From positions 248,327 through 312,326 of the forward strand of contig CATKHK010000011.1 of NCBI GenBank assembly GCA_949751835.1: DNA of 64,000 nt. Reading direction: 5' to 3'. This DNA is from Blepharisma japonicum. Taxonomy: Eukaryota > Ciliophora > Heterotrichea > Heterotrichida > Blepharismidae. Below, one piece after another: positions 1,914 to 64,000 of the stretch. Within the stretch, counting starts at the first letter, position 1. Every line of letters begins with the position of its first letter. The position numbers and the translations under genes are program-made. Below the pieces are notes generated by a model. That model was not told the origin of the DNA, did no database searches, and was given only the letters and a program-made list of their open reading frames with translations.

Positions 1914-3674
1914 ATGAAGTCTCCAAGGAAATCTGTCAAGCCTCTAAAGAATCTATCTTTGAGGGACCAATTATACATGCCCCCTCTCGAAAAGTACAGC
2001 GTCTTTGGGATATTTCCTTGGGCAATGGTTATCCATTTACTGCTCGTCCTTTTTGCTTCATGCCAAGTCGTGCTAATTATAAATTCAAGTGCCATGTATA
2101 GCTATTCACAGCTTATGCTCTGAAACCAATTATTTTTGAATAAGGACGTCCAAGGTAGTGATACTTCCCTATCTTACACATTTACTTTATTCAGAATAAA
2201 TAAACTCCAGAGCTATGTCCAAGAAACAGTTGAAAAGTACTATGACATAAACAGCCATGCAATAGACAATTATTCTTTTAAATACAATGAATACGGAGAC
2301 AAAAAGCCTGTGAAAATGTTCGTAAAATATTCTGACAGAGAAAAAGCGAAACATAAACATTATTTAGACGAATACGACTTGACAACTAATGATCTTGGTC
2401 CCTTTGAGTTTGTAAATTTAAAAGATTTTTTGGATTTAGTGAATGAGTTTCAGCTCCAGTTCACACTTTTACATCATTTAAATCCACATGTAGATACAGC
2501 TTCAACTTGCTATGAATGAACGATAAGCCAGATTTATCAATATACTTATCATGGGACAATAGAAGTTTTCCAAGAGTTTGATAGAGGAGTTTGCCACTCT
2601 GATTCTATCAATGTTTTTCAAAAGTACATATGACTTGATATATTAGTATTGATTTTATCGCTATCCAGTATAGTAATAACTATGCTTTACTTATTTAATC
2701 GAGCACTCTTAATTTCGAGATTGAAATACAACCCAAGAGCTACGATGGCTTATGCATGGGATTCTTTATCCACAAAAGAAAAACTGCATTTCATCGATCT
2801 CTGAATCTTAGTTACTATTTTTGGAAATCTATGCCAGCTTTTTGGATCATTAAGTGCGTTTATAGACGAGCAAAACGTTCTTAATATCCATGAAATCTTT
2901 ATTGGTTTTGGCTGCTTCTTTTCCTGGATCACTATCATAAGGTACTTAGAGCCTGCTAAAAATGCATATACTATAGTCCACACCATGCAAAGAGCTGTCC
3001 CTATTCTTGGTCCTTATATGGTAGGAATTTTGCCAGTTTTCATGGCATTCTCATTTTTAAGTATATGCTTATTTTGGGAAACTGGGTTATATCCCTCACC
3101 AATTTGGGCAATGATAGTAAATTTTTGTATGCTCAATGGTGACTCTTTATATTTCTTTATCAGTGCCGATTACACTGCAAATAAAGTTTTAGGCCAACTT
3201 TATATCTATGCATTTCTAGTCTTTTTTATTTGCTGCATTCACAATATTTTTATAGCCATTATCCAAGATGGTTTTGCATCTCTGCAAACAAATCCGATTA
3301 AGCAAGGAGGGGATTCAGACGAAGAAGCTGATACATCATCATTTTTCAGTGCATTAACCAAACTCAAAAAGAAGAAAAATCAAGATAAAGAAGATGAGAT
3401 TGATAGGGTTAAAAAGTCAAGAAAGGCATTTCGGAAAATTCTGACTGGGAGGGTTTCGGGACCAATAAACCAAGATAGGACTCAGACTTATTTAGATAGA
3501 ATGGAAAGGCAATTTGAAGATATCAAAAAAGCAATATCAAGCTTGCCTGACGTCATTGAGCCTGAGTCTGGGCATAGGGTTGATAGAAACGCATTAAAAG
3601 AAAGGATGAATGCAATGCTCAGCAAAGAAATAATGGATTATGCAGACATGCTACTTACAACTAAAGTCTTTTAA
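1914..3674 (+). CDS. Mucolipin-like (TRPML) cation channel
   Basis: 586 residues, close to human TRPML1 (580), once four TGA codons (2121, 2517, 2631, 2802) are read as Trp. A first membrane segment lies near residues 36-57. A long luminal loop follows, then a cluster of membrane segments with the mucolipin-like stretch WITIIRYLE before TM5. The pore loop carries NGDS at about residues 408-411, where animal mucolipins have NGDD. TM6 is near 424-452. The cytosolic tail is basic and coiled. Mucolipins are endolysosomal Ca2+/cation channels activated by PI(3,5)P2, so an endolysosomal location is likely by family. It starts at the first ATG after an in-frame TAA. PKD2-type channels are the main alternative. 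Confidence 0.8.
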
Positions 3675-3795: not shown

Positions 3796-4806
3796 ATGGC
3801 GAAAATGATGAGAGCCCTAGTTTTTGACAAATTTTTGCCTGATCCTAAGCCTTTTATTAAAGAAGTTCCGATTCCAACTCCAGGCCCTGGAGAAGTTCTA
3901 GTCAAAATGGAAGCAGCTCCTATTAATCCGTCTGACTTAAACTGAATGAAAGGGGTATATGGAATCAAGGCAGAATTACCTGCTATAGGTGGATTTGAAG
4001 GTTCTGGAACTATAATTGAAGCTGGCCCAGGAATGTTTAACAGTTTTCTAAAAGGAAGGCGTGTATCTTGTATAGCAGCTCCTGGCAAAAGTGGAACATG
4101 GGCTGAATATATGGTAACTAAATCAAATTATTGTGCAAAACTAAAAGATCATTTTTCATTTGACCAAGGTGCTACTTTTTTCATCAATCCTATGACTGCC
4201 CAAATGTTTACAGAAAAAATTTCTGCAGGCAAGCATAAAGCTGCTATTCAAACAGCAGCAGCTTCATCTCTTGGCAAAATGATGGTAAAATGGGGCGAAA
4301 GAAACAAATTCCCAATAATTAACATTGTAAGGAGAGCAGAACAAGTTGAGATGCTTAAAAAACTTGGATCCATTTACATTTTAAACTCAACAAGCCTAAA
4401 ATTTAAAGAAGAGTTATCAGATCTATGCAAATTACTACAGCCTACAATTGCTTTTGATGCTGTAAGTGGAGAGTTGACAGGAATTATTATGAACGCTATG
4501 CCTGATAATTCTATTCATTATGTGTATGGAGCTCTATCAGGGCAAGATATTTCAGGGATAAATACAAGAGGTCTTTATTTTGGAAATAAACTATTAGGAG
4601 GCTTATGGCTTACAAGCTGAATGCAAAGTAAAACATCTTTTGAGCTTTCTCTTGCTGTTGGGGCTGTGCAAAAGAACTTTGGTAACGCTTTTCAAAGTGA
4701 AATCATAGGTAGATTTCCACTTAGCAAATACGGTGAAGCAATTAAAATTTTTAAGAGTAACACTTCAAGCGGAAAAGTGATACTATGCCCATCACACATC
4801 ATATAG
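3796..4806 (+). CDS. Zinc-independent medium-chain dehydrogenase/reductase (quinone or enoyl reductase type)
   Basis: 336 residues with two TGA-Trp codons (3943, 4618). The N-terminal GroES-like fold shows PGPGEVLVKMEAAPINPSDL, typical of quinone oxidoreductases and mitochondrial enoyl reductases. The central part has GFEGSGTIIEAGPG. The Rossmann nucleotide site is present as an AAASSLGKM segment near residue 155 instead of a strict GxGxxG, as often seen in this branch. No Cys ligands for a structural zinc are apparent. It probably reduces a quinone, enone or enoyl substrate with NADPH. Several in-frame ATGs (3796, 3805, 3808) could be the start. It is convergent with the PHD gene, with 15 bp between the stop codons. 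Confidence 0.75.
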
Positions 4807-4821
4807 AATTAATAAAAATCA

Positions 4822-7800
4822 TTATTTCTTTTGATTTAATTTTTCTTCAATAAGCTGGGACAAAGGATGAACAAAGCCTAAAGCCTGGTACTCATGCAGC
4901 ACTTCTCTGAGATGATAGCCTGGTTGATCAGTTTCTATAGCTGTATTTGCTTTCTGTATCCACAGGTCTGCTGAGTTTAGAAGAGCATAAAGTTCATCCA
5001 AAACTGGGTCAGCGAAAGTCATCTTCAGAGCTTTTTTCCTTAATTCATTAAGCTTGGCATAATCCCTGCTTGCATTCAATTCTTTTTGTATATCATTTAC
5101 TAGTGCTTCAAAAAGCTCTATCCTTTTCTTCAGTCGATCTACTTTTTCAATCTTCAGATAGTGAGGATCTTCTCCGTCAATAAAATTCTTCAGCACTTGA
5201 ACTGAAACTTTTTGGGTTTCGAGGTCTTGCAGCTTTTGGGTATACTCTGAAGCTTTATTTATCATTTCTTCTAGCTTCTTTACAACTTCAACAATTTCAG
5301 GCTCACCCCAATTTTGAGAGTCAGCAATTAATTTTTTCATGTTTCTTAGGGAAATCTTTACATAAAGACTTTTATAAGCATCTCTAAGCCAATCCCGCTT
5401 TTGAAGAAGCTTCATAAGGAGCTCTCGTTCAGGGATCACTACAGGAAGCCCTTCATAATCTGCGAGCTTTCTCATTACTCTGCAATCAAACAGAGTTTGC
5501 TCATTTTCCAATGCTTGATTATCTTGCAGCATAAGCATTTCTAATTTTTTTGCTTGTAGCCCAGAATCTAATAGTTCATTAATTGAGCCTTTCCAGGCTT
5601 GCATTTTCTCATACACAAGTTTAAGCTCCCTTCTTTCGTCTCCATTGATTTTGAATTTTTCCCCTTCTTCTATAAGTTTTACGAAATCTTCTGTAGATAT
5701 CACTTGTCTGCGAGTTTTATCATTTCTTGAGCCAGTCCTCTCATTACATAAAAAGCATATAAATTCTTCAATTTTATCAATTTCTCCAGCATCAAGTCCA
5801 ATGCAAGAAGGGTGGTATCATTCTCCACAGGAGTCACAATTAACCATCACTGTGTCATCTCAATTGAGTTCATAATTGCATACACAAAAGGTTGACCAAG
5901 GAACTGTAAAATCTTTTGGCCTCTTGGATGATTTTTTAGTTTGTTTTACTTCGTCGTTAAGGCGACTTTTGAAGTTTAAGGCGCGTTTTCTTTTAAAATC
6001 AATTAGGTTGCGAGGCTTTATTTTTGGGAAAATTTTGTTAACTCGGAAAATCATAGAAATACCTTCTGTCGGGTGGTAAAGGGGGAATGCGTAGAAATTA
6101 TAAGGAATATCGATATCTACAGGGCTTTCTTGTGGGGATACTTCTTCTGGCTCTTGATTGATGTATTCTTCTAATGTGCAGCGCTTCTTAAGAGATCTTG
6201 GGTTAATAGGCATTCTAGGTGGAGGATTTGGGAGCGCTGATAGAACTTTTCTTGCTCTCACCCTCCAGCCTTTAAGATCTTCAGCAATTTTGGCGAGTTG
6301 ATTAAACTCATCAGTTTCATAGCAAATCAAATCTCCTTCTTTCATTAAAGTTTTCAGCTCTGCATACTCTCCTCCGTTATTTATGATATCTCTGGCTCTT
6401 TCTTTCCATGCGCAGATTTCAATTAATGATCTTTTAAGAAGAGTTTTCTGGGTTTCGGGCACTGGGATATTTTTGGACTCTTTATAAAGATCAATGAGTT
6501 TATCAATAACACCTTCTTCACAAGCTGTATGGAGCCTTTCTCTTCATTCTTCAGTCTGCTTTGAGTGGACTGGAGCTTTGAAATTCCTGTCAGATAAAAT
6601 CATCAGCTGTTCAGCTGGGTTATCTTTGACTACAATTGGAATTTCTTTGGCCCATTCTTGTTGAGTCTGCTCAAGACGAGTAAGTTCTTGAAATTCTTCT
6701 GACTCTTTAAGGATATCAGGACATGACTGTAAAAGCCTTGTAAGGCTCGGAACTTCATTGAGTGATGGGCGATGCTTTGAAAATTGTCGAAGGAACTCAG
6801 TAGCTTCACTTACCCAATTATCAATTGTTTTGACTTTATTTTTAATTGACTTATACTCATGACAGCTGACTTTTAGGTTGTCATTTTGGCTCTGGATTTC
6901 CTTTACCTGTTCCCAGCTTCATTTTTCTTGGTCAATATTAGCAATCTCTATACATTTTTGTTGGAATTCTAATGCCATGCTTAGCTTATCTTTCAACTCA
7001 GTCAAAGTCGGCTCCACCTCAATTCTTTGATTTTCTCCTTGTTTGCACAGTTTTTCTAATTTGCTGATTTCAATTACTTCTGACCCTGCAAGCACCCGCT
7101 TGGACTTTTCCCTCCACTCTTTGAACTTCTTGAGCATTGATTGGAGTTCTTTAAACAATTGGCTGCTTATCTTTTTCCCTTTAGCTTCATTTATTAATTG
7201 AGTTAATTGTTTTTGGTTAATCACTTGAGTTTCCAATATTTTTCTAGCTCTCAAAGACCATTGGGCGTTATTCTTTATCCCTTCTAGGCTTCCAACTTCT
7301 AAAGGTAAATTGTTGCCTTCTTCTAGCACTGCCATCATGGAGTCACTTTCTTTATCTTCTTCTGACATTTTCACTCTCTCTTGTCACTCTTTGACCTGCT
7401 CTATGGAGTTCTCTAACACTCCTATTTCGTGGTGAGTGAATTTAAGCTCTTTAGCTTCGTTTAGCAAGCACATGACTTCTTGGACACTTGTGCGGCTATT
7501 TTCCTTGCGAGCTTTTCAGCTACGGATGAGGTTGTGGGCTGACTCGATCCATTTTTTGGTTTTTCTGTGCTTTTCTTTGACAGAGGGCAGCTCTGGCAAA
7601 TTTACAGGCAGTGCTGAACCTTCAGTGACAAGGGAATGCAGCTGCTTCAGTGTAGGATAATTGAGCTCTTTTACTTTTGCAGTCCATTCCAGGGCTCTTG
7701 TTAAGTACTCTTTCATGCTTTTCATAGTCGATGTTTGAATTTTGTAAGCCTCGCTTTCTTGCACCAATTCCTGCAGCTCGGCTACACTCAGCAATTTCTC

Positions 7801-46204: not shown

Positions 46205-47285
46205 TCTTGGATGTATTGCTTGGTGTGGCTTAAAGCACTGCAAGTGGAATTCAAGCCTACTCTTGGCACAGCGGATGCGAATGTCATTCCTAGCATACAC
46301 TGCGCTTTCCTGGATATTAGCAAAGCGTTCGACTCAGTGAAGCATAACGATCTATATAGCACCATGAACAGCAGAGGCATCTCAAGTGATTCACTTAGAG
46401 TGCTAATGTCTATGTATGAAGATGCAAGGTGCTACAAGCACCTACATCCCAACCTATGTACTCTTGAACTCTGATAAACAAGTAGCGGTTGGAGCCATAC
46501 ATAGACTCAGAGCAGGTTTCAACAGTAGCAATGGTTGTGCATACAAACGACACTTAACCAATAACCCATTGTGTGAGGTCTGCTCGATAGTTGAAACTGA
46601 AGAGCACATGCTGATATGATGCCCAGTATATGCAGATTATCGGTGTGAACTGATGACCAAAATTACCGAGATAACACAAAGAGACGACTCAATAGAAACT
46701 CTAGGTGATATACAGGACACTCACATACAAGACGTGCACATGCGTGACATGCACATACATGACATGCACATACAGGACATGGACATACAGGGCATGCACA
46801 TACAAGACATGCACATGCAAGACATGCACATACATGACATACACATGCAGGACATGCATATACATGATATGCATATACAGGACATGGACATACAAGACAC
46901 ACATAAACAAGTCATGCACATGCATGACATGCACATACATAACATGAACATACAGAACATGCACATGCATGACATGCATAACATGCACATGCCTGGTACG
47001 CACATGCAAGATATGCACAACTCACTGGATCAGGAGGTGCATATGCTAGGTAGCTCATTACATGAAATGATTAGTGGACAGGCTCAGGAGAAACAAGAAG
47101 CACGAACAGAGACCGGCAATACACAGGAGCTACAAACACGAAATGCTGTAGGAGTTACATTGCTGGACATGTTAATGTACAGCTGAAGATTTGAACAACT
47201 AATGCACAAATGGTGGACTGATGGAAGAGCGGAGGTAGTGAAAGAAATGGACTGGCTGATTAAGATAAGATAAGATTCTGCATTT
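46205..47285 (+). mobile_element. Dead LINE (non-LTR retrotransposon) remnant
   Basis: Two non-LTR reverse-transcriptase pieces in different frames. About 46215-46474 encodes RT motif A (CAFLDISKAFDSVKHNDL). About 46455-47273 encodes the C-terminal part with the CCHC-like zinc knuckle CEVCSIVETEEHMLIWCPVY (TGA as Trp), typical of LINE ORF2 ends. The YxDD active site, the thumb and the whole endonuclease are missing, so there is a large internal deletion as well as 5' truncation. The second frame runs through a minisatellite to TAA at ~47271-47273. The 3' end shows (AAGAT)3, like the short tandem tails of LINEs. The segment is richer in G+C than its surroundings. Confidence 0.75.
46707..47015 (+). 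repeat. 15-bp minisatellite coding a pentapeptide repeat
   Basis: About 21 imperfect units of consensus CAYATRCANGACATG, translated in the LINE C-terminal frame as [HD]-[IM]-[QH]-D-M. One unit near 46975 is shortened by two codons (HNM), keeping the frame. The unit contains no stop in any frame, so all six frames are open here. The other five are artefacts of the repeat. Confidence 0.9.
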
Positions 47286-47893: not shown

Positions 47894-48871
47894 TTAATTA
47901 TTAGTTAAAATAATTTCAATAGGGTGGTGATCGCTTCCTAAAATATCATTATGAATCAAACTGTCTCTCACTCTTGGCATCAATGCTTGGCTTACTACAA
48001 TATAGTCCAATCTCCACCCCATATTTTCTCTTTTGGCTCTTGGATTTTTAGAGCTGTACCAAGAATACTTCCTTTCATTAGGATAAAGATATCTAAAAGA
48101 GTCTACAAATCCTTCAGCCAATGTTTGAGTAAATTGCTCTCTTTCTTGTGGTGTACATCCTGCACATTTTTCTTTTCCATTCATATTATATATATCAATA
48201 TCTTGATGAACAACATTTAAATCTCCAAGCCAAATAACGCTTTTCCCCCTTCCTTCTAATTGCTTTAAATAATTTCTAAAATCATTATCCCATTCTTGTG
48301 TTCTATAAGAAAGTCTATCTAATTTTTGTCCAGCATTAGGAACATAAGTGGAAATAACGAAAAAAGTGTCAAATTCAGCTGTGATAATTCTTCCTTCATC
48401 ATCGTGCTTACGACGGCCAAGTCCTGTTACAATACTTATTGGCTCAATTTTACTTAAAATTGCAGTCCCAGAGTAACCTTTTTTAGTTCGACTACAAGAT
48501 CAATATTGATAAGGAAATGCTGGAAAATTATTTTTGAAATCTTGAATGTTCGTATCTTGCAACTTAGTTTCATTGAAACATAGGATATCAATATTATCGA
48601 GGCCTGTAAAAGTGATGAAGGATTGCTTTTTAATACAAGCACGAATTCCATTAACATTCCAAGAGATTATATGGATTTCTGGGCTTGAAAATGTGCCTAG
48701 ACTATTTGTTTGAATTTTAGCATCTTCAGCTATTAATTTAGTTTGTTTGGAAGTTTTAGCAGATTTGGCAGGCATTTTTTCTTCCTCAGAATCAGAGAGT
48801 TTTCTCTTTGCAGGCTTCTTAGATTCATCGTTCTTTTTAGCTTTACTTTTTGGAGGCTTCTTTTCTTTCAT
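47894..48871 (-). CDS. APEX1: AP endonuclease APE1 / ExoIII family
   Basis: 325 residues with one TGA-Trp (48500-48502). The first ~65 residues are a Lys/Ser-rich, nuclear-type tail. The catalytic domain then follows human APE1 closely: ISWNVNGIRACIKK, DILCFNETKLQD (metal-binding Glu), KGYSGTAILSKIEP, STYVPNAGQKLDRLSYRTQE, WLGDLNVVHQDIDIYN (catalytic Asp/Asn), AGCTPQEREQF, GWRLDYIVVSQ and GSDHHPIEI (catalytic His pair). It cuts DNA 5' of abasic sites in base-excision repair. Start at ATG 48871, TAA 47894-47896. Confidence 0.96.
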
Positions 48872-49396: not shown

Positions 49397-52300
49397 TTAT
49401 AAATTTCCATTTTGGCTGGCTAAAGCACTATTTTCTGAAGGGTTAGGATCAACCTCGTGAAAGTTGATTCTATTATTTGAATTATTTTCAAAGCATTCAC
49501 TTTCAAATTCTTGAGAGCTGTTTATCATTCTACTAGCTGTAATATGTGTATAATTCAAATGCTTATTTTTTATATCTTCACTTATACTATCTTCTATGAT
49601 ATAATTTGTTTTTACCCCAGATTTTCTGAAAAAAATGTTTCTTATTAATAAAAACTTCTCTTTAAGTAATATCAAAAATTCGCTAAAGATTTTTAATAGA
49701 CTGTAAAAGATGAAAGAAACATTTGAACAAAACGCTATGATAAATACAAAAACCGTTCCAGAGTATTCTAATTCGTCTGTCAAAAAGAAAAGACCAGTAC
49801 AAACTGTAGCCAATAAAGTGAATTTAGAAAATAGTTCCATATTGTTTGAACGCTTATCTTCAAAGGGTTTATTTTTATTTTGTAGAAAAAGGAAAAAGAT
49901 CAATAAAATCGTAACTGCAAGAGCTTGGATAGAAATTGATATATTTGATAAGAAGACCGAAAAACTTATCAGTGTAATTTTGCAATATAAAATAACAAAT
50001 TCTCAATAAAAATATGTTTTAGTATAGCCATTGTAAAGGAATCCATATCTCAATTTGACTACTGTATCTTCTAATTTGTTCTTATTTCTACTCAACTTTA
50101 CCAGCCAAATCGCTGGGACGAGAACACCTCAAATTATGATTGCAGGCAGAGCTATCAAATATGAAAAAAAGACATGATCAAAATCTCAACATTGAATATC
50201 AAGATCAATATTAAGTCAATATTCACCAGAATTTATTTCTCTACAGCTAAAAATGCTGAATAAAGTTTCAATGAGGCCTGGGTGGATTAAAAATAATAAA
50301 ATGATAGATGTAGAAATTAGGTTATCTGAAATCGTTTTTCAGGCTCTTTTCTTTATCTTATAGTATAATATTCATGCAAACAAGCATAAAAATCATAGCA
50401 TTATAGGGATAAAGCTAATAAAGATAAGTTTAGCATAAAATATTTCTATTTTGAAATTTGATTTTTGAAAAAAGCAGTCCAAAGAAAACAATTGTTCTCC
50501 AACATAATTCATACTTAATTCTATATAAAAAAATTTCATTAATCATCGTGGCCAATTTAGGTCGAAAGTTGTGATGATGATTATAATATGTAAATAATTT
50601 CAAAAGATTTTGATATAAACTGAAGTAAAGGCTGAAATTCCAAGAATTGAATTTTTTACAGCCTTTATTGTTAATAATGCAATCACAATAAAAATAATAA
50701 TAAATCCAAACATTCTCATAATATTAATATAAGTATCAGGGCATTTTTGACATTCATTTTTATAGAGCCTTGAATATCCAGAATCGCAAGATTGGCACAT
50801 GTTCCCTTTATAGCCGTCTTTGCAGTTTCCTGTTAATGAAATATTATTGAGATCTGGAGATCCTAAACAAGCTGGAGGGTATGGGCACTTCCAAAAATGA
50901 TCAGTATATTTATTATATCTCCAATATCCATGATCAGGAACAATTGTAAAATTACCATAGCATTTTGCATGATCAGGACAAGCTAAGCATGCAGTATTGT
51001 TTGGATTTAAACTATAATAAGGCTTTTCACAAACTAAGCAAGTAATATTTACAGTTGCCTCTCCAAAATCGCATAAGCGGACTTTTACATCTGCATAAAA
51101 ATCTGGATTAGATGAAGAATAGCCATTTGCCTCTTTAATAGTAGAAGTATAAATCTTGATTTTAGTTAAGGATCCTGGCTTAGCTGTGATGACATAATCA
51201 GTAAAGTTAAAGATTCCACTAGCTGCTATTGCTCGAGTTACTCCAAAAAGAATTGTATCTGAATTAGCGCTGAGCATTTGTGCTTGACTTATGTTGTCTG
51301 TTTTAACAATCTGATTATAGTGGTCAACTAAAGCAAATGCAATAGGTTTATTATTTTTTTGACCAGAAGCAATCCCATCTATAGTTGGCGCTTGTAATAC
51401 AGCCTTTTTTGCGTTTTCAATTTCTTGATATGCTAGCATTATTGGGAATGAAGCAATATCATCTCCATATTCTGCAGAATTTCTTTCAAAATTATTGTGA
51501 ATAATGATTGGTTCAGCGTCTTTTCAGCTGATAGCTCCTCCATTGTAAACTGCTGAATTTTCAGTAAAATTGTTATAAGATATATTAAAAAAACAATGGC
51601 TAAAATCCTTGCAACTAAAGTTAATTCCGCCTCCAATCCCATCAATCACACCATTCTCATTGTTTTTTAACCCAGATGAATCTGCAAAATTTTTTATAAA
51701 TTTAGATGTAGAAACCGTAAAATTTAAATTTTCTACATAAATTGCTCCTCCATTTAAAGCTTTGCTATTCGAGAATTTAGATAAAGATATCGCGTATTGG
51801 TCTTTCGGAAAGTCCTTCTCAGTAGCAAAATAAACTGCCCCTCCAGATTCTGATGCAATATTTTGATCAAATGAGCATGAATCTATAATTAATGACTCAC
51901 ACTTAGAGCAATAAATTGCCCCTCCACTTGATCCTGATCCTTCATGAAATTCAGAAGAATTAATTTGCAATGAAAACAATTCCTCTCCATAAATAATACT
52001 TTTGGTTGATTTTTTGAATAGTGAATTTTCTATTCTGATAAAGCTATTATATGAATCAATTACTGATCCTTGAGAATTTTGAATTACTGTATCATTAACA
52101 TATAATGTACTTCCCTTATAAATAAAGATTACTCCTCCACTACTTGAAGCTATATTAGAAAATAATGAATTCAAAATAGTTACATTGCTTGAAATAGAAA
52201 AAATAGCAGTTCCTGAACTAGTAGAAAATCCATTTAAAAAGTTTGAATCCTCGATTAACACATTGCTATTTGCATTAATTTCAATAAAGCATCCTTGATT

Positions 52301-55300
52301 TCCAGATTGATCTGAAAAGCTTGTATTTCGAATAGTGATATTTGAAAAAGACAGGCCAATTCCTGCATTATTATCATCTGCAAGATTATGGTGAAAAGTT
52401 GACGAATCAAATTCTATGACTGATGATAAAAGTGAAATAGTTCCCCCATTTTTGGCACTATTTTCATTAACGTCACAATTATTTATTTTTGAAGTATGTT
52501 TTGAGCATCTGATCATAGCAAATACAGATCCCTTATTTTTACAATAGTTTTTTTCGATTTTTGAATCTTTGATAATAAAAAATGAATCTGACTCAGCGTA
52601 AGCAATGCCCCCTGCATTGGTTGCATAATTTTTAATTAAAGTGCATGACATGCAATAAAATTCAGATTCATAGCTTAGTGATGCAACCCCTCCATTTATT
52701 GCATTTGTGTTATTATAGAAATAAGCATTCTTTAAACTTATGATTGCTGAATTTTTCAGTGTTGCTACAGTGCCAGATAAATCTGAATATCCATGCTGAA
52801 ATGTGGAATTGTTGTCTATTAGTGTATCATTGTCTAAAGAAAAAATTGAACCAAGATTGTATTCAAACAAACAAAACTGTGTTTCCAAAGTTGCATTTTT
52901 ATTTTCATCGGTCAATAAAATAGTTGCTGATGCTTTATTTCATTGAAAAGCACAAAAATTTAAAAGAACTTTTGAAGGATTTTCTTCAGAATTTTCATTG
53001 ATTGCAATATGAAGAGCTGAGCTATATGATCCTTTGTTTTCGGTAAAATTAGAATTATCTACAGAAAGTATTCCATCGAAATAAGAAATAAAAAGAGAGC
53101 CTGAGAGAGCTGCATAATTTTCTTTGAATGTGCAATTATTTACAAGAGAGCTGCTTGATAGTTTAATAGCATTTCCAATATAAATGCATGCCCCATTGAT
53201 TGCTTTATTTTTAAAAAATGCCGAATTGCTAATTGATAAAGCCATTTTTGTATTTGAATAATATTTTTTATTCAAATAAATTGATCCACCATTTAGAGAA
53301 CAGGAATTATTTTTAAAAATTGTATCAGAAATAATAAATTCTGAATTGGAAATACTCAAACCTTGGGGCACTGATCAATGGATAGCTCCTCCAGATAGCT
53401 CAGGTGATTGATTTGATTCAAAATGACTATAATTGATATGCAGGTTTTGACCTAAAAAATATAAAGCACCTCCTGAATCAGCAATGTTTTCTATAAACAT
53501 ACAATTTTCTATCAATAAGGTGCTACTATTTGTAAAATCAATTGATCCTGGACTTCCATTTAAATAATTTAGATTATTCATGAATCTTGAGTTTTTGATA
53601 GTTGCTGAGTAAAGATTTTGAAAAGATAAACTGATTCCAGTAGATCCTGCACCTATATTTCGTTCAGACTTAAAGAGGTCAATAAAAATTGATGCTGTAT
53701 TATCAATGATAATTGCAGGAGATGAGCTTCTGCAATAATTATCGGCTGCGCTGATATTTTGCATATAGAGATTAACTGAGCCACTTATTAAAGCCATTGA
53801 TTTGCAGGAAATATGTGCTGGGCTTGACGCTTCAAGCTTTAAATAAATATTAGGATTATTGATGAAGTATTTCAAAATTATCGAATTAAGATTGCTATCT
53901 TCATAAAATTTATCTCCATTGTCTTTTATTAGAATATCTTCTATATCTATATTGGCCATGTGCATTATTTCTATTAATCCATCTGCTCCTGAATAATTAT
54001 CTATGAAAGTCAGATTCTTCATAGTTAAGAAATTAGGCAAATATTTCACAGCAACAGTTAACCCACTTGGAGTGGTCGCATTTATATATTTTCCATTTAC
54101 AAATTTGTCTTTCATCGACTCACTTCAGATTGATATTATACTGCTAGTTTCAGCTCCATTTGATATAAAATCTGAAGACTCTATTAATATATTTTGTGTT
54201 TCATTATAATAATGTGCCGACAAAATTGCATTTGATTTTCCATAGTTGGATATAAAAGATGTATTTGTGATATGAATATGAGTAAGAGTTGAATACTTTA
54301 AAACTTCTGTTTCATTGAATTCAATTGAATAGTAACTATATTTATTTTGGATATTGATAATTCCTAATTCACAGTAGTTATATGAAAATATGCAAGAATC
54401 AATCACTAATGATTCGAATCACCCAAGAGCAATTAAAGAGGCTGAACTCAGGATATTCAGTGGGTTAATATATATCATATTGTATTCAAATTCCACATTT
54501 TTGATTACTATAGATGTAATATTAGGGGCATATAAAAATCCTCTTAAATTAATTGGATCTCCGAATTCATAGCCATTATTTAGTCTGCTTACTTTGCCAT
54601 AATTATAGAAAAATGTTCCAGGAGTAGGATCATAAAATGTATATTCACTTAGATATGTGACAAAAATTATAACGCCAGAATTTTCAATCTCAGCCAATTT
54701 TATGTTATCAAATTGTACATTATTTAGAACAACATTGCTACTGCCTACTATTTTCATTAATGCAGTATGGCCGAATCGGAAATTTTTGAAAGTTACATTT
54801 TTAAGGATTAGATTGCTATTGACCATTAAGAATCAATAGTAGTATCTTTGGTATTCGCAATAAACAGAGCTCAAGTATTCATAAATTTCTTCATGTCTAT
54901 CGTTATAAACCCTATAAGATTCTGAATTTGAGTATATATATGGGCAGTACTCACAATATAAACTTCTTGAGCAAGTAATGAAGTTTTTCCCATCAAATAG
55001 CAAGTTTCTCATTTCTAATGAAGAAAATCAGAACTCGAAGAGCTTTTGATAAGAGGCACTGTCTGGATTTTTTTGTCTAATGCTTATTTGATTTTCACTC
55101 CAAGATGCGATAAGAACGTTTTGTAATGATTTTTTGCTATCAAAATAGCCTCAACCAGATAGATCATCTAAATTTATATCAAGGAAATAATCCCCATCAT
55201 CTAAGAGATAAATAGTTGTATAAGCATTTTTAGAAAAATATAAAGCAACAAGAAAGTGTTGATATGGAGATCATCTAGTTCCTTCTCCTTCATAAATATC

Positions 55301-56653
55301 AGAGCCAGCAATTGATGTAGCGAAGTATATATGTGGATTATTAGCTGATGAAATGTCATAATATGGAACATAAACTAAAGATCCATCAGGAAATCGTGTA
55401 CGGGGGTTATTTCCTATTCTAATGCAAAATCCGTAATATAAAAATTTAGTTTTGCATGAGAGACACATTAAACCATATGGGCCTACATAAACTTTTGAAC
55501 AATCAGGATCGAGTATATAATAAAAATTGCAGTTGCCATTTGCAAAATTACATTCAAGTATGTTGCATTCCCAGAAGCAGTTTTTCGTTTCAAAAACTTT
55601 GTAAATATCGCAAGCATAATTTGAGGCCTTAAAGCAGTTTTCTAAGTATGAAACATATTGAAAATCTTGGCGTATAATTTGCTGATATGAAGAAAAAATT
55701 GCTAAGCCAGTATTTTGACATCAATTTTTTGGATATTGGGTTATTCTGTCGAAATTGCAATTAGCTACTAAGCATTCTGGCTTGCATTTTCCATAATCTA
55801 AATAAGTGCAGCCATTTGAGCATGCACAGTCTTTATAATCGTACTCACAATCATAATTATTGCATTCATGATTACAAATTCCATTTCCGAGCATTTCTGG
55901 ATAACATCCACTAGCACAAGCTCCACAATCATGATTATCTAGAACACAATTTCAATTATTACATGCTGGATCACACTTACCATCTCCAAGCATGGATTTG
56001 AAACATCCTGGAGAGCAGTCACAATCTCAACCGTCAAAGTTACACTCAGGCACATGGCAAGCTTCGTCACAAATTGAATTTGAAAACATCCAAATAAAGC
56101 AGCCAGGTGCACAAATTCAATTATTACAGTCACCAAAATCAAAATTGCATCAAGGATAAGCACATTCAAGGTTGCAAACTCCATTACCTAATAAATTAGA
56201 AGAGCACCCAGGCTGGCATTCCTGACAAGATCCAGACCCATAATAGCAAGGTGGCACGTTACAATCAGGGTTACAATTTTCCTGAAGTTTGACTTCTGTG
56301 CCTACATAAAATTTACATGAAAACGCACAATACCCGCAATCTCCTCAATCATATCCGCAGTTTCTGGTATTACAAATAGCATCACATATTCCATTTCCAA
56401 GCATTTCCTTTTTACAGCCATCTATATATATGCAACTTCAATAGCAATCTGAACTTTCTTTATTAGCCAAGCCATCGACATAAATGCTTGTGTCATAATT
56501 GCAATAAGGTGTCATGCATTCTGGGTTGCAATGGCCGTTTCCTTTCTGAATAATTATTACTTTTGCATCTGGGCATTCCCACAAATTGCACGAAAGTTGT
56601 TCATTAGCATATATGCCAGCTATACAGTAGAATAAGACCCATAGAATTACCAT
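49397..56653 (-). CDS. Giant surface protein: LNR repeats, beta-helix array, Cys-rich stalk, multi-TM C-terminus
   Basis: 2418 residues in one frame, with many TGA-Trp. The signal peptide is MVILWVLFYCIAGIYA. Residues ~20-310 hold five or six LNR (Lin-12/Notch) repeats such as LGNGICDAICNTRNCGYDWG and LGDGKCDPACNN. About 600-1720 is a right-handed parallel beta-helix array of ~25-residue turns with S-x-F-x-x-N and GGAI/GGAIY motifs. At ~1850-1985 is a Cys-rich stalk (CLACPDHAKCYGNF, GYKGNMCQSCDSGYSRLYKN). About 1985-2360 contains eight or nine hydrophobic helices, followed by an Asn/Ser-rich cytosolic tail. This architecture is known from large ciliate and oomycete membrane proteins; an adhesion or receptor role is inferred. 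The downstream neighbour is a paralogue. Confidence 0.85.
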
Positions 56654-57832: not shown

Positions 57833-60800
57833 TTAAGACTCTGCATTATAATCAAGGCTTATCATCTTGTCTATCTCATTTTTTTGGCTTTCATTATTAC
57901 TTAGACAAGATTGCTCATTACTTAAACTGGCTTCAAAATTTTCATTAGATGCATGATTACTTATAATGATTTGGTTTCTTACTTTTTCAATTTCTGGATC
58001 ATTAGAAATTTTATAGCGATTTCTCCAAATTTTGGCTTTTTGATAAATAAAACAAAAAACCACCCTAAAAATACAAAAAGTCCAATAAGCCAAGAAGTAG
58101 CTTAGCAAAAACAATAATAACAAAAAAGAATAAACCAGCATTATCTCCAAGCGACCCAGTCAAATAAAATAATCCACTATAGACTGTAATAACGCACACA
58201 AACTTAGCTTGCAGCTCTAAATGATTTAAGTTTGGCTCAACATAAGGACTATTAGAATACTGAATCTGCAAAAATACCGTCAACAATATCGCAGCAATCA
58301 ATGCTTGAATTTTTAATGCTATATTCGTCAAAAAGACTGAACAGCAAATAAGAATAATTTTATTGTAGATAATAATAAATTCCCAATAATATTGCTTTAA
58401 ATGATACCCATTAAATAAAAACCCATAGCGAAGCTTCACATTTAGCTCTTCCAAGTATTTTCTCTTCCTAATTAGGGCTACCAAGCAGATAGTAGGCAAT
58501 AAGATTCCCCAGATAAGAATAGACGGTAAAGAGACTATTAGAACATAAAACTTATGCTCATCGTCCCAGCATCTTATATCAAGGTCTTCTTCTAGCCAAT
58601 ATTCTCCTGAATTAATTTCTGTACAATTAAATGAAGCAAACATTTTTTTAATAATACTAGGATGCACTAAAAATAGAAGAATGATGCAAGTAGAAATATA
58701 ATCATCCCAAAAATTCTTAAATGATCTTTTTTTAAGCTTGATTATAATCCAAATAATCATTGCTAAAATGGCCATGAGTATTGGAATTAAAGAAATCATA
58801 ATCAGGCTCCTATAAAAGAAATTGCTATACGAAGTTTCGTTCTCTAAAAGGCATTGAAAAGAATAGAGTTGCTGATAGATATAATCTGTACTTGATTGGA
58901 TATAAAATAACTTTAAAACTTCACTAGGTCAATTCAATTTGAAAGTAGAAGTCAAGATGATCATTTGTAAATAATTTAACAAAATTCTAATATAAATTGA
59001 CATTAAAGCCTTTGGCTTGAATGCTGACTTTATGGTTGCTCTTATAATAATGGAGACTAATATAAATAGCGCTATAGTGATTGCTATTGTAATTGCTAAA
59101 TTTTTAGCAAATGAAGGGCATTCTTCACACTTATTTGCACTTGTGCGAGAAAATCCAGCATCACATGATTGACATTTATTACCTTTATATCCAGAATTGC
59201 ATAAACCAGTATAAGATACATTTACAGGATCAGGAGATCCTAAGCAAGCATTATAATTTGGACATTTCCAAAATTTATCTGTATAAGCATTATCTCTTCA
59301 GTATCCTGGCTTTGGAGCCATTCGAAAGCTTCCAAAGCATTCTGCATAACTTGGGCAACCTAAACATTGAGTTGCTATAGCGCTTAAGCTATAATATCCA
59401 TATCCACAAACTTCACAATTTTTTCCAGCCTTGATTTCTCCAATTTCACAATCCCTCAGTTCAATATTAATAAGCAAATTTTGATCAAAAACTGCATTAT
59501 TTGATTTAATTTTTTTATTATTGTCAATAGCTGAGGTAAATACTCCAATAGTCACATTTAATCCTGGCTCATCTGAAATTGTGTACTGAAAAAAAGTAAA
59601 AATGCCTTTAAGTGCTTTAACTTTGGTAACTCCTGCTATAATTGTGCTCACATTTTGTGATTTTAATTCACCAAGACTAGCATTGTCTGTTGTTATGATT
59701 TGGTTCATATTGTCAACAAGCGCAACCATTATAGGTTTTTTGCTATCTTGCCCAGGGGCAACTGATGATAAACTGAAAGTTGAGATTGGGCTATCTTCCA
59801 AGTGCCTAATATTCTTGTAGCCTTCCAGTTCTCCATTTTCATTTATGCTCATAAGTTTTACAGGGTAGGATGAGTAATCATTTCCATACTTGGCAACATT
59901 ATTCATGAAATAATTATCGGATAGTATCGGTGCTCAGTCATTTCAATTGATGGCACCTCCATTATAGGTCGCAGAGTTTCCTGTGAAATTACATGATTCT
60001 ATGTTAAATTCGCACTCTTCACTTTTTATGCAACTCAGTTTGATTGCTCCTCCAATGCCCTCACTTATTTCTGAATCATAAAAGTCTTGCTTTGAAAATG
60101 CTTTATTGCTGGTAAAAGTTGCTATTGATATGGATCCACTTAAATCATTTATATATATAGCTCCTCCGTTATTTGCTGAGTTTTCATTAAAAGAGCATGA
60201 AGATATTTCATAAATGCTATTTTGTGATGTTTGACTATCAAAGTATATAGCACCTCCAGCAATTGAAGCTTCATTATTATTGAATGAACAAGATTTAATC
60301 TTTATATCACCACATGAATAACAGTATATTCCTCCACTTAATCTTCCATTTCCATTTTCAAAGGATGACTTTGAAATATTTAGTTTTTTCAGATAGCTCC
60401 CATATATTCCAGATTTTGAGAAATAATTAAATATAGAATCTTCTATGGTTAATGGTGTTTGGTATGCGTAAATAATTCCACCTTCCAAGCTATGGGAATC
60501 TGAAAATTTGGAGTCTTTTATTATTAAAGCAGAATCTAATGAGGAATAAATAATTCCTCCAGAAGTTACCGAAGATAAATTTTTAAATTCTGAATTTTCT
60601 ATTTCAACATAGCTTGATGAAGAATATATTGTACCTCCTGAATCACTAGAAATCCCATATGAAAATATAGAATTCTTTATGTAAACAACACTGTTTATTG
60701 AAATATAAATAAAGCAGCCTAGGACACAGCTCTGGTTGGAGAAATGAGAATTTAAAACACTTAGGCTTGAAAGCGACAGCTTAATCCCACCTTGGTTACT

Positions 60801-63800
60801 ATATATTCTTGAAGACTCAATTAAAGTTTTGGAATTTATCAAAACTATTGATCCTCCGTTTTTCGAGTTATTCTCGTAAAATTTGCTGAAATTAAGATTG
60901 GATTCTCTGTTTGTGTTAAATCCATATATAGCAGATCCATCTTCATCACATGAATTTTGGGTAAATTCAGAGTCAATAATTGAAAATACAGAATCTTGTT
61001 CTGCATAAATGGCACCTCCAATCTGAGCTTTGTTGCCTGCGAAATTGCATGAGTTGCAATAAAATTCTGAAGCGGAGCTTAGCAAAACGGCTCCACCATT
61101 AGTGGAGCTTGTATTATTTAAATACTTGCTGGAATTAGAAATTGCAATAGCAGAGTTTTGCAATCGTAAGCATGGCCCAGAAGTGGCTGAATTATGTTGA
61201 AAAATAGATCCAGAATCATTGAGTGAGTCATAGTTTAAGGATATAGATACCCCATAGTTATACTCAAAAACGCAATTTATTGTTTTAATGTAAGAAATGC
61301 TGTTTTGATTGTCTGTAAGTATTACTGAAAGTCCTTTATTATTTGAAAACTTGCATGAATCAAAAGTGGCTGTTGAGTTATTTATATCTATTTGAAGAGC
61401 GGAACTTAGCCTGCCTGAATTTGTGAAAAAATCGCAGAATGAAAAATTTAGATTGCCTTTGCTGTAAAGTAGGATACAGGCAGAAATTTTGGAGCTATTT
61501 TCGATAAAATTGGAATATATTATAGCTGAAGAATCTGCCAAGGTTATTGTGCTGTCAATATATAAGCAAGAAGCATAAGATGCGGAGTTAAAAGAAAAAG
61601 TTGAACTTTTAATCGAAATTTCTGTGTTTGATGATCCGGTTCACTGTTGGGCAATAAAAATGCTGCCTCCATAAAGGGCTGAATTGTTTCTGATATTTGT
61701 TGATGATATCTCAAATAAGCTTGTCCCACTTGCTAATATTTGAAGATAGAGCACTGCTCCTCCATATCCATTTGGAGAATAGTTTGATTCAAATCGAGAA
61801 GATCTAATAGAGATCATTTGGCTTGCTACATTTATGGCGCCACCATAATCTCCTGTATTTTCTCTAAATGTGCAATTATCTATATACAGACCGATACTGT
61901 CTTTAATTTCTATTGCTCCAACTCCTGTATCATAGCTGTTAAAGTTTTCTTCAAATGAGGAATTTTTTAAAACTCTGCTAAAATTTCCTGTAAATAAAAA
62001 GCAAATTGGTAAAGCCCCATTCCCCTTATTTGATTTACAGTTTATAGAGCTAATATCAGCAGTATCTGAACTAACTATTGAATAAGTAGGCGATGAATTT
62101 CTACAAGTATTGTTTATAATTGTAGCTTGAGAAATATCAACATTGTAAGAATTTGATATAGAAACCATATATTTGCAATCAAGCACTTCAGGATTTATTG
62201 CTTCTCTTTTTAAATAAACATCTTCATTTCTGATAAAATATGCAAGAAGTAAAGTGTTGAAATTTTTATCTTCGCTTGGAGATCCATTAGAGTCAATATT
62301 AATATTTTTGAGAGAGAGATTAACTACTTTAGACAGATTAATCATTCCAACTCCATGATTATTCTTGAATGACAAGCTGTCCATTTTGCATCATCTTGGC
62401 CCTAAATGCGCATCTAGAGTTCTCCCAGAGCTCAGTTTATAAGGTCTTAAAGTTCCATTTTTGTATTCATCTAGTATAAATGAGTTTGAAATAGTTATTG
62501 CAGGTCCTTGCTCTATCCCATTGCCCTCAAAAGTTAAGTTTTCAAAATGAATATTTATGAGATAATAAAAAAGATCAATATCAATCAGTGAAGATTTTCC
62601 ATAATTAGAAATAAATCTTGAATTATGTATATAAAGGTGGTCTTCATATGAGTAAGATAGATAATAAGTTTCATTTACACCTCCAGGATATGATTTCACG
62701 CTCAAGTCGAGGTTTATTATTCCATTCTCACAGTAATTATACATAAAAGTGCAATTATCTATTGTTAAAAAGTTGACTGCACTTATATAAATCATTGAAA
62801 CCTGGGCATATATGCTATCTTTTTTTCTGTAAACCAAATTATATTTGAATTCAACATCTTTGATTAAAACTGAAGTAATTGTAGGCGAATATAAAAATCC
62901 TCTAAATTCCATTTGGTCTCCATACTCATACCCATTATTTAATCTGGTTACTGAGCCTCCAATATATATTAGATCCGCATTTGAAGTATCTTCACCAGTG
63001 AGTGATATTATTGCAGCTGTATCGTATCACTTTAGTCAGATATTGTCAAAATCAACATTGTAAAGCCTTATATTAGCTTCTCCTCCAATAAGACTGCTGT
63101 AGCCTGACCTAAAGTTTATGAATTTCACATTTCTCAAAATTAAAATAGATGCTAAATAGTTTGCGTTAAGGTCTGGCATTACAGATCTACAGTAAAAGAG
63201 TGGGTGATTATATCTAGACCATGCTTTTGGATATAAACTATTGCAAAAATCATTCGGCAAATTGCTCGATACACTTTCACCTCTATCATTATAGTAAAAT
63301 CCATTATTTTTATTATAAGTGTTATATGAGCAATAGGAGCAGTAAATTGAGTCGCTACAAGTACTTCCTTCTATATCATCTCCTTGAATAATTAAATTTT
63401 CCATTTCAAGATTCCCGAAAACTTGGATCATAGTATAATTCCAACTTTTAACTTTCATAGTAATTTTGCTGTCATCTTGAGAAATTATTTTTCACTCTCT
63501 TATTTCATTAGTGAAGCCAAACTGTATATCATTGAAATCATATGATCCGTCATTCTTTAGAAGAATAATATTATGATAGGTTTTAATATTGGAAATTGCA
63601 TATTTTATTGTTTCGAATGGATTATTTATTGATCCATCACCTGAAGGTAAATTATTTATTTGCTTTGAAGTTACATAATAAAAGGAGAGATGAGGAAATA
63701 AATCAAATGATGATAAATAGTTAGAGTAATATAGAGAAAGATCAAATAAATTTAGGTTCGTGCAATAAGTGCTTTTATCAAAGCATTGATTGCAAGAAGC

Positions 63801-64000
63801 TTTCCCTAGGCTTTCGGTTGGGTTTGCACAAATATTGCAGAGGTTTCATGCAGATTTTGGAAGATTTTCTTTGCAAGAACTATAAGAATTTATATTGCAT
63901 AATCCATAATTGCATTCAGGAACGAAGCATTCTGAGTGGCATTGGCTTGCATCAAGAGCCATTGCTATATTGCATTTGTAATTAGAAGCAGTAAAGCATT
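57833..64000 (-). CDS. Second giant LNR-family/beta-helix/multi-TM protein, N-terminus outside the window
   Basis: Paralogue of the neighbouring giant gene, running off the right edge (~2055 codons visible). The visible part starts in a Cys-rich region (CNIAMALDASQCHSECFVPE). It continues through a beta-helix array (about 63600-59950, with GGAIY and S-x-F-x-x-N turns), a Cys-rich stalk (CLGCPSYAECFGSFRMAPKP, CQSCDAGFSRTSANKCEECP) and eight or nine membrane segments (about 59120-58060). The main frame ends at TAG 58065-58067 (LLDFLYF). A +1-shifted frame then carries a tail homologous to the neighbour's tail (VVFCFIYQKAKIWRNRYKIS..) to TAA 57833-57835. No 15-18 nt intron explains the shift, so there is a frame lesion or a sequence error near 58065-58095. 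Confidence 0.8.

Follow-up and report, generated by a model that had tools for sequence, protein, structure and literature searches.

In the polycystins and fibrocystin (PKD1, PKHD1) a giant ectodomain is tied to a sensory membrane system, and among the transient receptor potential (TRP)-like proteins there is a further family, PF06011, which we take to include Schizosaccharomyces pombe Pkd2 and Saccharomyces cerevisiae Flc1-3. Pkd2 is reported to have nine helices, an extracellular N-terminal domain with a putative lipid-binding ectodomain, and a cytosolic C-terminal tail, and to pass Ca2+ upon membrane stretch (PMC11277609). Here we describe gene A of the heterotrich ciliate Blepharisma japonicum, which lies in a window of 64,000 nucleotides (positions 248327-312326 of contig C11) within a 45.2-Mb assembly of 224 contigs. 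Its predicted product combines Lin-12/Notch repeats (LNRs), a long beta-helix, a Cys-rich stalk and a nine-helix membrane module; each part is known singly, and no description of an LNR, beta-helix and multi-pass architecture, or of such a family, was found in the titles and opening lines of abstracts of the open-access PubMed Central literature. Because of the probable kinship of the module to PF06011 and the precedent of the stretch-activated Pkd2, we give an even chance to the reading that gene A encodes a giant plasma-membrane protein in which a very large ectodomain is tethered to a TRP-like channel or sensor. The plasma-membrane location itself is suggested by the putative signal peptide, the many Cys residues and 41 NxS/T motifs.

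The membrane module and its relatives

The original prediction, made from the letters of the window, had proposed eight or nine membrane helices, and nine hydrophobic helices are counted both from hydropathy and from the DSSP assignment of a structural model of the module (predicted local distance difference test score, pLDDT, 81.8; predicted template modelling score, pTM, 0.77) built from a 47-row alignment. By our reading of the charges, K/R-rich loops would lie inside and acidic loops outside, which would place the N-terminus outside and the C-terminus inside; Cys 191, 268 and 286 of the module are invariant, and all are on the side read as outer. The loop between transmembrane (TM) helices TM4 and TM5 had been singled out as a conserved extracellular segment, and the charge pattern agrees with an extracellular position, but the loop is not the most conserved part of the module, since it ranks 50 of 327 alignment windows and the top windows are at 346-370 (the YWEF helix) and 142-166.

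The module is likely to be kin to PF06011, short of formal membership. A six-frame search of the genome with PF06011 gave 30 rows at E <= 1, 16 of them inside the LNR-beta-helix family to which gene A belongs, although gene A itself is not among the rows. The family member at C60:188746-189162 reaches 31.4 bits against a curated cut-off of 28.5 and is the sole family row above it; an hmmscan of this member aligns residues 16-365, nearly the whole module, with positions 170-409 of PF06011, at E 0.0016 and 17.7 bits, below the cut-off. None of the 56 rows at E <= 1 from a six-frame genome search with PF08016 falls in the family, and none of the three rows obtained with PF00003 (7tm_3; on C5, C25 and C81) is at a family locus as judged by coordinates. 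Because of this disparity in counts, the similarity to PF06011 is, at the level of sequence profiles, specific to the module rather than a matter of general membrane-helix composition. When the fold is compared with the viral models of BFVD, the top match comes from Megaviridae and is annotated as 'Transient receptor potential ion channel' (E 4.5e-5, prob 1.00, TM score 0.45/0.52, root-mean-square deviation 13.4), and the next matches are two uncharacterised Megaviridae proteins. When the TRP-like and G-protein-coupled receptor (GPCR) folds that the original prediction had named for comparison are set against each other, the PF06011 and PF00003 counts and the BFVD match favour a TRP-like module over a class C GPCR, and for this reason a mechanosensory or contact-sensing role is plausible.

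Two results weigh on the other side: an hmmscan of gene A and the 47 alignment rows returned no PF06011 match at all, and neither Foldseek nor VIA gave a clear fold match for the module in the PDB. The same hmmscan found no channel or receptor family above cut-off, and the TM profile A2 found nothing better than E 0.25 among PDB sequences.

Outside the family, PF06011 matches are located on C139 (five matches), C110, C51, C15 and C4, partly in an array; these loci were absent at E <= 1 from searches with the single proteins L052 and P0002. Elsewhere in the window, at 1914-3674 (+), PF08016 matches a gene for a polycystin-type channel (E 7.6e-8).

The ectodomain

At least five LNRs had been predicted in gene A, and the repeats are borne out, with their Asp/Asn pattern. 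PF00066 matches six stretches (E 4.5e-25), and five strict cores, starting at residues 90, 160, 195, 227 and 260, keep the pattern C-x3-C-x4-C-xx-D-xx-D-C, with degenerate units besides; when the first 420 residues were shuffled 2000 times, the mean number of cores was 0.001 and the largest 1. Of 119 distinct core-like segments at the family loci compared, 104 and 81 retain, respectively, the first and the second of the two Asp ahead of the last Cys; from work on Notch we presume these Asp to be Ca2+ ligands. A phmmer search of the PDB at E <= 0.1 returned Notch1 and Notch3 chains alone (six distinct sequences, best E 1.5e-4). Such a resemblance to the Notch negative regulatory region invites the view that gene A encodes a force- or protease-gated receptor in which the LNRs would mask a cleavage site and cleavage would free a fragment. 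This we consider extremely improbable: NOD/NODP (judged by sequence only), EGF and ankyrin have no Pfam match in gene A at E <= 1, the protein is multi-pass with a variable tail lacking a recognised domain, and about 1650 residues intervene between the LNR array and the membrane. A role of the LNRs as a Notch-like protease-gated cover is thus unsupported.

The long beta-helix that had been predicted is real. An AlphaFold2 (AF2) model (pLDDT 87.2) has a right-handed coil fold and, together with Foldseek and VIA matches, reveals a rod of at least 1000 residues, which probably begins earlier than modelled residue 701; PF13229 matches paralogue B (E 1.5e-18), with no match in gene A. Most of the structures that the rod matches in fold are polysaccharide lyases, epimerases, glycosidases or phage tailspikes; an autotransporter passenger and the adhesin PfbA are also among them. 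The prevalence of polysaccharide-active folds would suit a chemosensory or prey receptor without channel activity, its rod binding bacterial or algal polysaccharides and its TM bundle signalling by other means, and large tandem repertoires suit chemoreception. However, the beta-helix fold alone says nothing on function, the tail of gene A contains no Pfam signalling domain, and the TRP-like similarity favours a channel; we regard a receptor of this kind as decidedly unlikely.

Between the rod and the membrane are two smaller elements. Foldseek rows of 116-142 columns to immunoglobulin (Ig)-like and MSP chains (prob 1.00, E 0.0086 to 0.024) possibly belong to the compact beta domain, the output being given without a query range. 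The stalk of gene A matches PF24633 (DUF7630) at E 7.4e-5 and 23.3 bits in hmmscan, under the cut-off of 27, and at 26.4 bits in the six-frame search, or 28.4 with neighbours; all 32 PF24633 matches in the genome lie no more than 250 bases from a TM module of the family. Pfam side matches to PEN-2, MSC and NCD3G were below their cut-offs and are put down to composition or Cys pattern, and a match of the stalk to TNFR_ELAPOR1 was also under cut-off except in L048, where it was just reached (33.2 of 33.2).

The gene family and its locus

With the gene A TM module as query, 93 rows were recovered from the genome, comprising 74 near-complete modules and 19 fragments. These counts are lower bounds, and the near-identical contig ends C131 and C198 (95.8% over 2.8 kb) may be alleles; two of the 74 modules, one of them gene B, contain TAG or TAA, and that on C200 aligns to residues 69-360 only. 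The 74 modules are spread over 23 contigs; 56 have another family member on the same strand no more than 15 kb away, and 11 share one 88-kb contig. The family, the size of which the original prediction had proposed to check, thus amounts to some 70 genes, most of them clustered in tandem. The order of parts found in gene A recurs across the family: 117 of the 140 LNR matches are on the strand of a family TM module and at most 6.5 kb upstream of it (distance 4252-6059, median 5275), and 62 of the 74 modules have such an LNR match; nine further long frames were scanned and PF00066 was found in two (L039, L041), and in several others the LNR match is upstream of the TM frame, presumably across an intron. 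In a tree of 43 rows contig neighbours cluster, with 22 label changes, whereas 200 shuffles averaged 33.5 and none went so low, and there are several exchanges between contigs; gene A groups with genes on C11 and C9. Pattern searches for relatives yielded 35 stretches in viral contigs and 38 in a genome contig collection without other eukaryotes, none of them confirmed.

Four TM-module copies with several TAA/TAG stops (C164:27501-28520, C148:23137-24150, C24:423500-424139 and C107:88005-89389) are apparent family pseudogenes. The other 23 LNR matches have no such module. At C41:280419-282893, C5:340755-342973 and C1:290341-291072 there are clusters of LNRs that are not followed by a family TM module in the next 6.5 kb; this ciliate thus seems to have further kinds of LNR protein.

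Comparison of gene A with its relative gene C gives identities of 74% in the LNR head, 46% in residues 316-645, the least conserved large segment, 62% in the beta-helix, 77% in the stalk and 68% in the TM module. Ratios of nonsynonymous to synonymous substitution (dN/dS), from a simple Nei-Gojobori count, are 0.13-0.28 across these parts (0.14 in the TM module, with dS 1.4), and indicate purifying selection; the estimates are rough because dS exceeds 1 for A and C, and for A-B and B-C it is at or close to saturation. A different picture is given by the young tandem pair L045/L048 on C42, aligned pairwise, in which identity over the presumed beta-helix drops to 55-60% in three windows of 100 codons, with dN/dS of 0.91, 0.70 and 0.36, and a neighbouring window has 75% identity and dN/dS of 1.39, against 93-98% identity and dN/dS of 0.12-0.14 in the TM windows. 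Ectodomain hypervariability was absent from the young pairs L030/L032, L021/L022 and L028/L029, for which the last ~260 beta-helix residues were compared, as well as from L005/L043 (N-terminal half) and from L041/L043 and L039/L043 (full-length); L045/L050 was too diverged for a selection estimate, and L048_2/L049_0, one gene in two overlapping loci, was left out. Diversification of the rod is thus seen in one tandem pair, and is a lead, not a result.

This divergence of the rod above near-constant helices in one pair, the tandem clustering, and the fold matches to an autotransporter passenger and an adhesin are what would be expected of a surface coat, adhesin or variable surface antigen, in which the rods would be the functional coat, the nine helices mainly an anchor, and the tandem arrays a source of diversity. 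We think this rather unlikely, as nine conserved helices are superfluous for a plain anchor and TM2 and TM6 (mean column identity 0.685 and 0.718) are as conserved as the stalk (0.644); the three other young pairs are not hypervariable over the last ~260 beta-helix residues, and the head and stalk are well conserved between A and C. Pairing in Blepharisma is reported to be under gamone control (PMC9942806), and large contact receptors acting in a mating-type system, gamone or cell-contact, are conceivable. A family of at least 74 diverged members spread over 23 contigs does not resemble a mating-type locus, however, and because the roughly 70 copies are diverse and mostly clustered a repertoire fits better than one such locus; we judge a mating-type system highly unlikely. 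The alternatives to a TRP-like channel or sensor are ordered with the surface coat first, followed by the glycan or prey receptor, the mating receptor and the Notch-like shedding receptor.

Gene A itself is one uninterrupted frame from ATG to TAA in translation table 4, with 25 TGA codons, and the coordinates given for it in the original prediction are correct. Genes B and C need GT..AG introns of 16 nt and 15 nt, respectively, right after the signal-peptide exon to remain in frame, and because the in-frame 15-mer GTAATAATTATTCAG of gene A sits at this site, its true product is probably the shorter one. Reading of TGA as Trp is favoured 44x over background at TGA positions of the family TM alignment. 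Arrays of the 8-base repeat CCCTAACA give 77 + 91 three-unit matches in the genome and 0 in a reversed control, and among the matches listed those on the + strand are inside the first 450 bases of contigs, the C11 array starting from base 334. Blepharisma introns are reported to be predominantly 15/16 bp, and TGA as Trp, CCCTAACA arrays and 15-/16-nt introns, which together speak for the genus Blepharisma, are all reported for B. stoltei (PMC9942806). By frame comparison, the last TM helix of gene B is apparently broken by a frameshift near 58100 (window 58065-58201 (-)), either a sequence error or a young pseudogene; a GT..AG candidate at 58199-58184 was ruled out as the cause, since the resulting reading is non-homologous.

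Just downstream of gene A is an apurinic/apyrimidinic (AP)-endonuclease-like gene (PF03372, E 1.7e-28; window 47894-48871 (-)), and beyond it a low-complexity open reading frame (ORF) of HIQDMHMQDMH-type repeats (46416-47273 (+)), for which Pfam gives a pentapeptide match only, below cut-off, and whose start presumably resembles the end of a non-long-terminal-repeat (non-LTR) retrotransposon reverse transcriptase. Neither Rfam nor a tRNA scan (ARAGORN, set to the bacterial code) gave a match in the window.

Table 1. Features of gene A and its two neighbouring relatives (window coordinates unless a contig is named).
Feature	Coordinates	Strand	Basis or remark
Gene A, complete ORF	49397..56653	-	2418 aa, TGA=Trp; 2413 aa without the tiny intron
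Likely signal peptide, residues 1-16 (MVILWVLFYCIAGIYA)	56606..56653	-	By-eye sequence reading; first exons of B and C correspond
Probable 15-nt spliceosomal intron GTAATAATTATTCAG, in frame	56546..56560	-	GT..AG introns of B and C at same site
Cys-rich head with LNR array, residues 17-315	55709..56605	-	Pfam, core pattern, PDB sequence relatives
Linker and probable N-terminal beta-helix cap, residues 316-645	54719..55708	-	Cap inferred
Right-handed beta-helix, residues 701-1735 (modelled part)	51449..54553	-	AF2 model, Foldseek, VIA
Compact beta domain, residues 1739-1860, possibly Ig-like	51074..51439	-	DSSP of AF2 model; Foldseek
Cys-rich stalk, residues 1861-1972, ephrin-receptor-like + DUF7630	50738..51073	-	PF24633
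Membrane module of nine helices, probably a diverged TRP-like domain (PF06011), residues 1973-2345	49619..50737	-	
Acidic loop between TM4 and TM5 with two invariant Cys, residues 2136-2159	50177..50248	-	
Tail, residues 2346-2418, probably cytosolic, variable	49397..49618	-	
Paralogue B, same architecture	58065..63998, past window to about C11:313,300	-	
Gene C	C11:314089-321213 + upstream exon		

Proposed function and known systems

The original prediction had offered a mechanosensory, adhesion or mating-type receptor; its mating-type part finds no specific support, while mechano- or contact-sensing is plausible from the probably TRP-like module and the analogy with Pkd2 (PMC11277609). Under such a scheme the membrane module would be a channel that lets Ca2+ pass, or a comparable sensor, oriented with its N-terminus out and C-terminus in, and the rod would lift the LNR head some tens of nanometres above the membrane. 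The head would bind, or take force from, a surface, be it prey, cell coat, substrate or partner cell, and the signal would travel along the rod, through the disulphide-stiffened stalk, to the helices, altering ion flow. The LNRs would then be Ca2+-stabilised modules of the distal head and not a Notch-style cleavage gate, and the gene family would present many ectodomains on one membrane core. A more elaborate version, which we think rather unlikely, has about 70 TRP-like channels per cell, each with its own giant rod ectodomain, LNR-tipped, as a tethered lever by which contact or force would gate the channel directly, arising independently of Notch and the polycystins, with rods diversifying in tandem arrays and the core held constant.

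Heterotrichs are single cells that respond to touch, contact and prey; to our knowledge their contact-sensing molecules are largely unknown, and the family supplies concrete candidate genes, its size hinting that sensors for touch, contact or prey may exist in a large set not characterised so far. If the proposal is true, the use of LNRs would extend beyond Notch-type gating, and the little-studied Flc/Pkd2 TRP-like type would extend to very large ectodomains.

Gene A shares with Notch receptors its LNR units, with their Cys and Asp/Asn pattern, but Notch receptors are single-pass, whereas the gene A protein has nine hydrophobic helices, gives no matches to HD, EGF or ankyrin domains, and carries its LNRs N-terminally, far from the membrane. 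The right-handed beta-helix is shared with autotransporter passengers, PL6 lyases, epimerases and tailspikes, from which gene A differs in that its protein is eukaryotic and membrane-spanning and involves no beta-barrel secretion. With the polycystins and fibrocystin it shares the concept of a giant ectodomain on a sensory membrane system, although PF08016 is not matched in the family. The best functional precedent is the reported response of Pkd2 to membrane stretch. Sequence similarity to the Pkd2/Flc TRP-like proteins is at the edge of detection, and in place of the putative lipid-binding ectodomain of Pkd2 gene A has some 1950 residues of LNRs, beta-helix and Cys-rich stalk; but a nine-helix module, a probable outside N-terminal domain and a probable cytosolic tail are common to both, and in the gene A family the PF06011 matches are limited to the membrane module.
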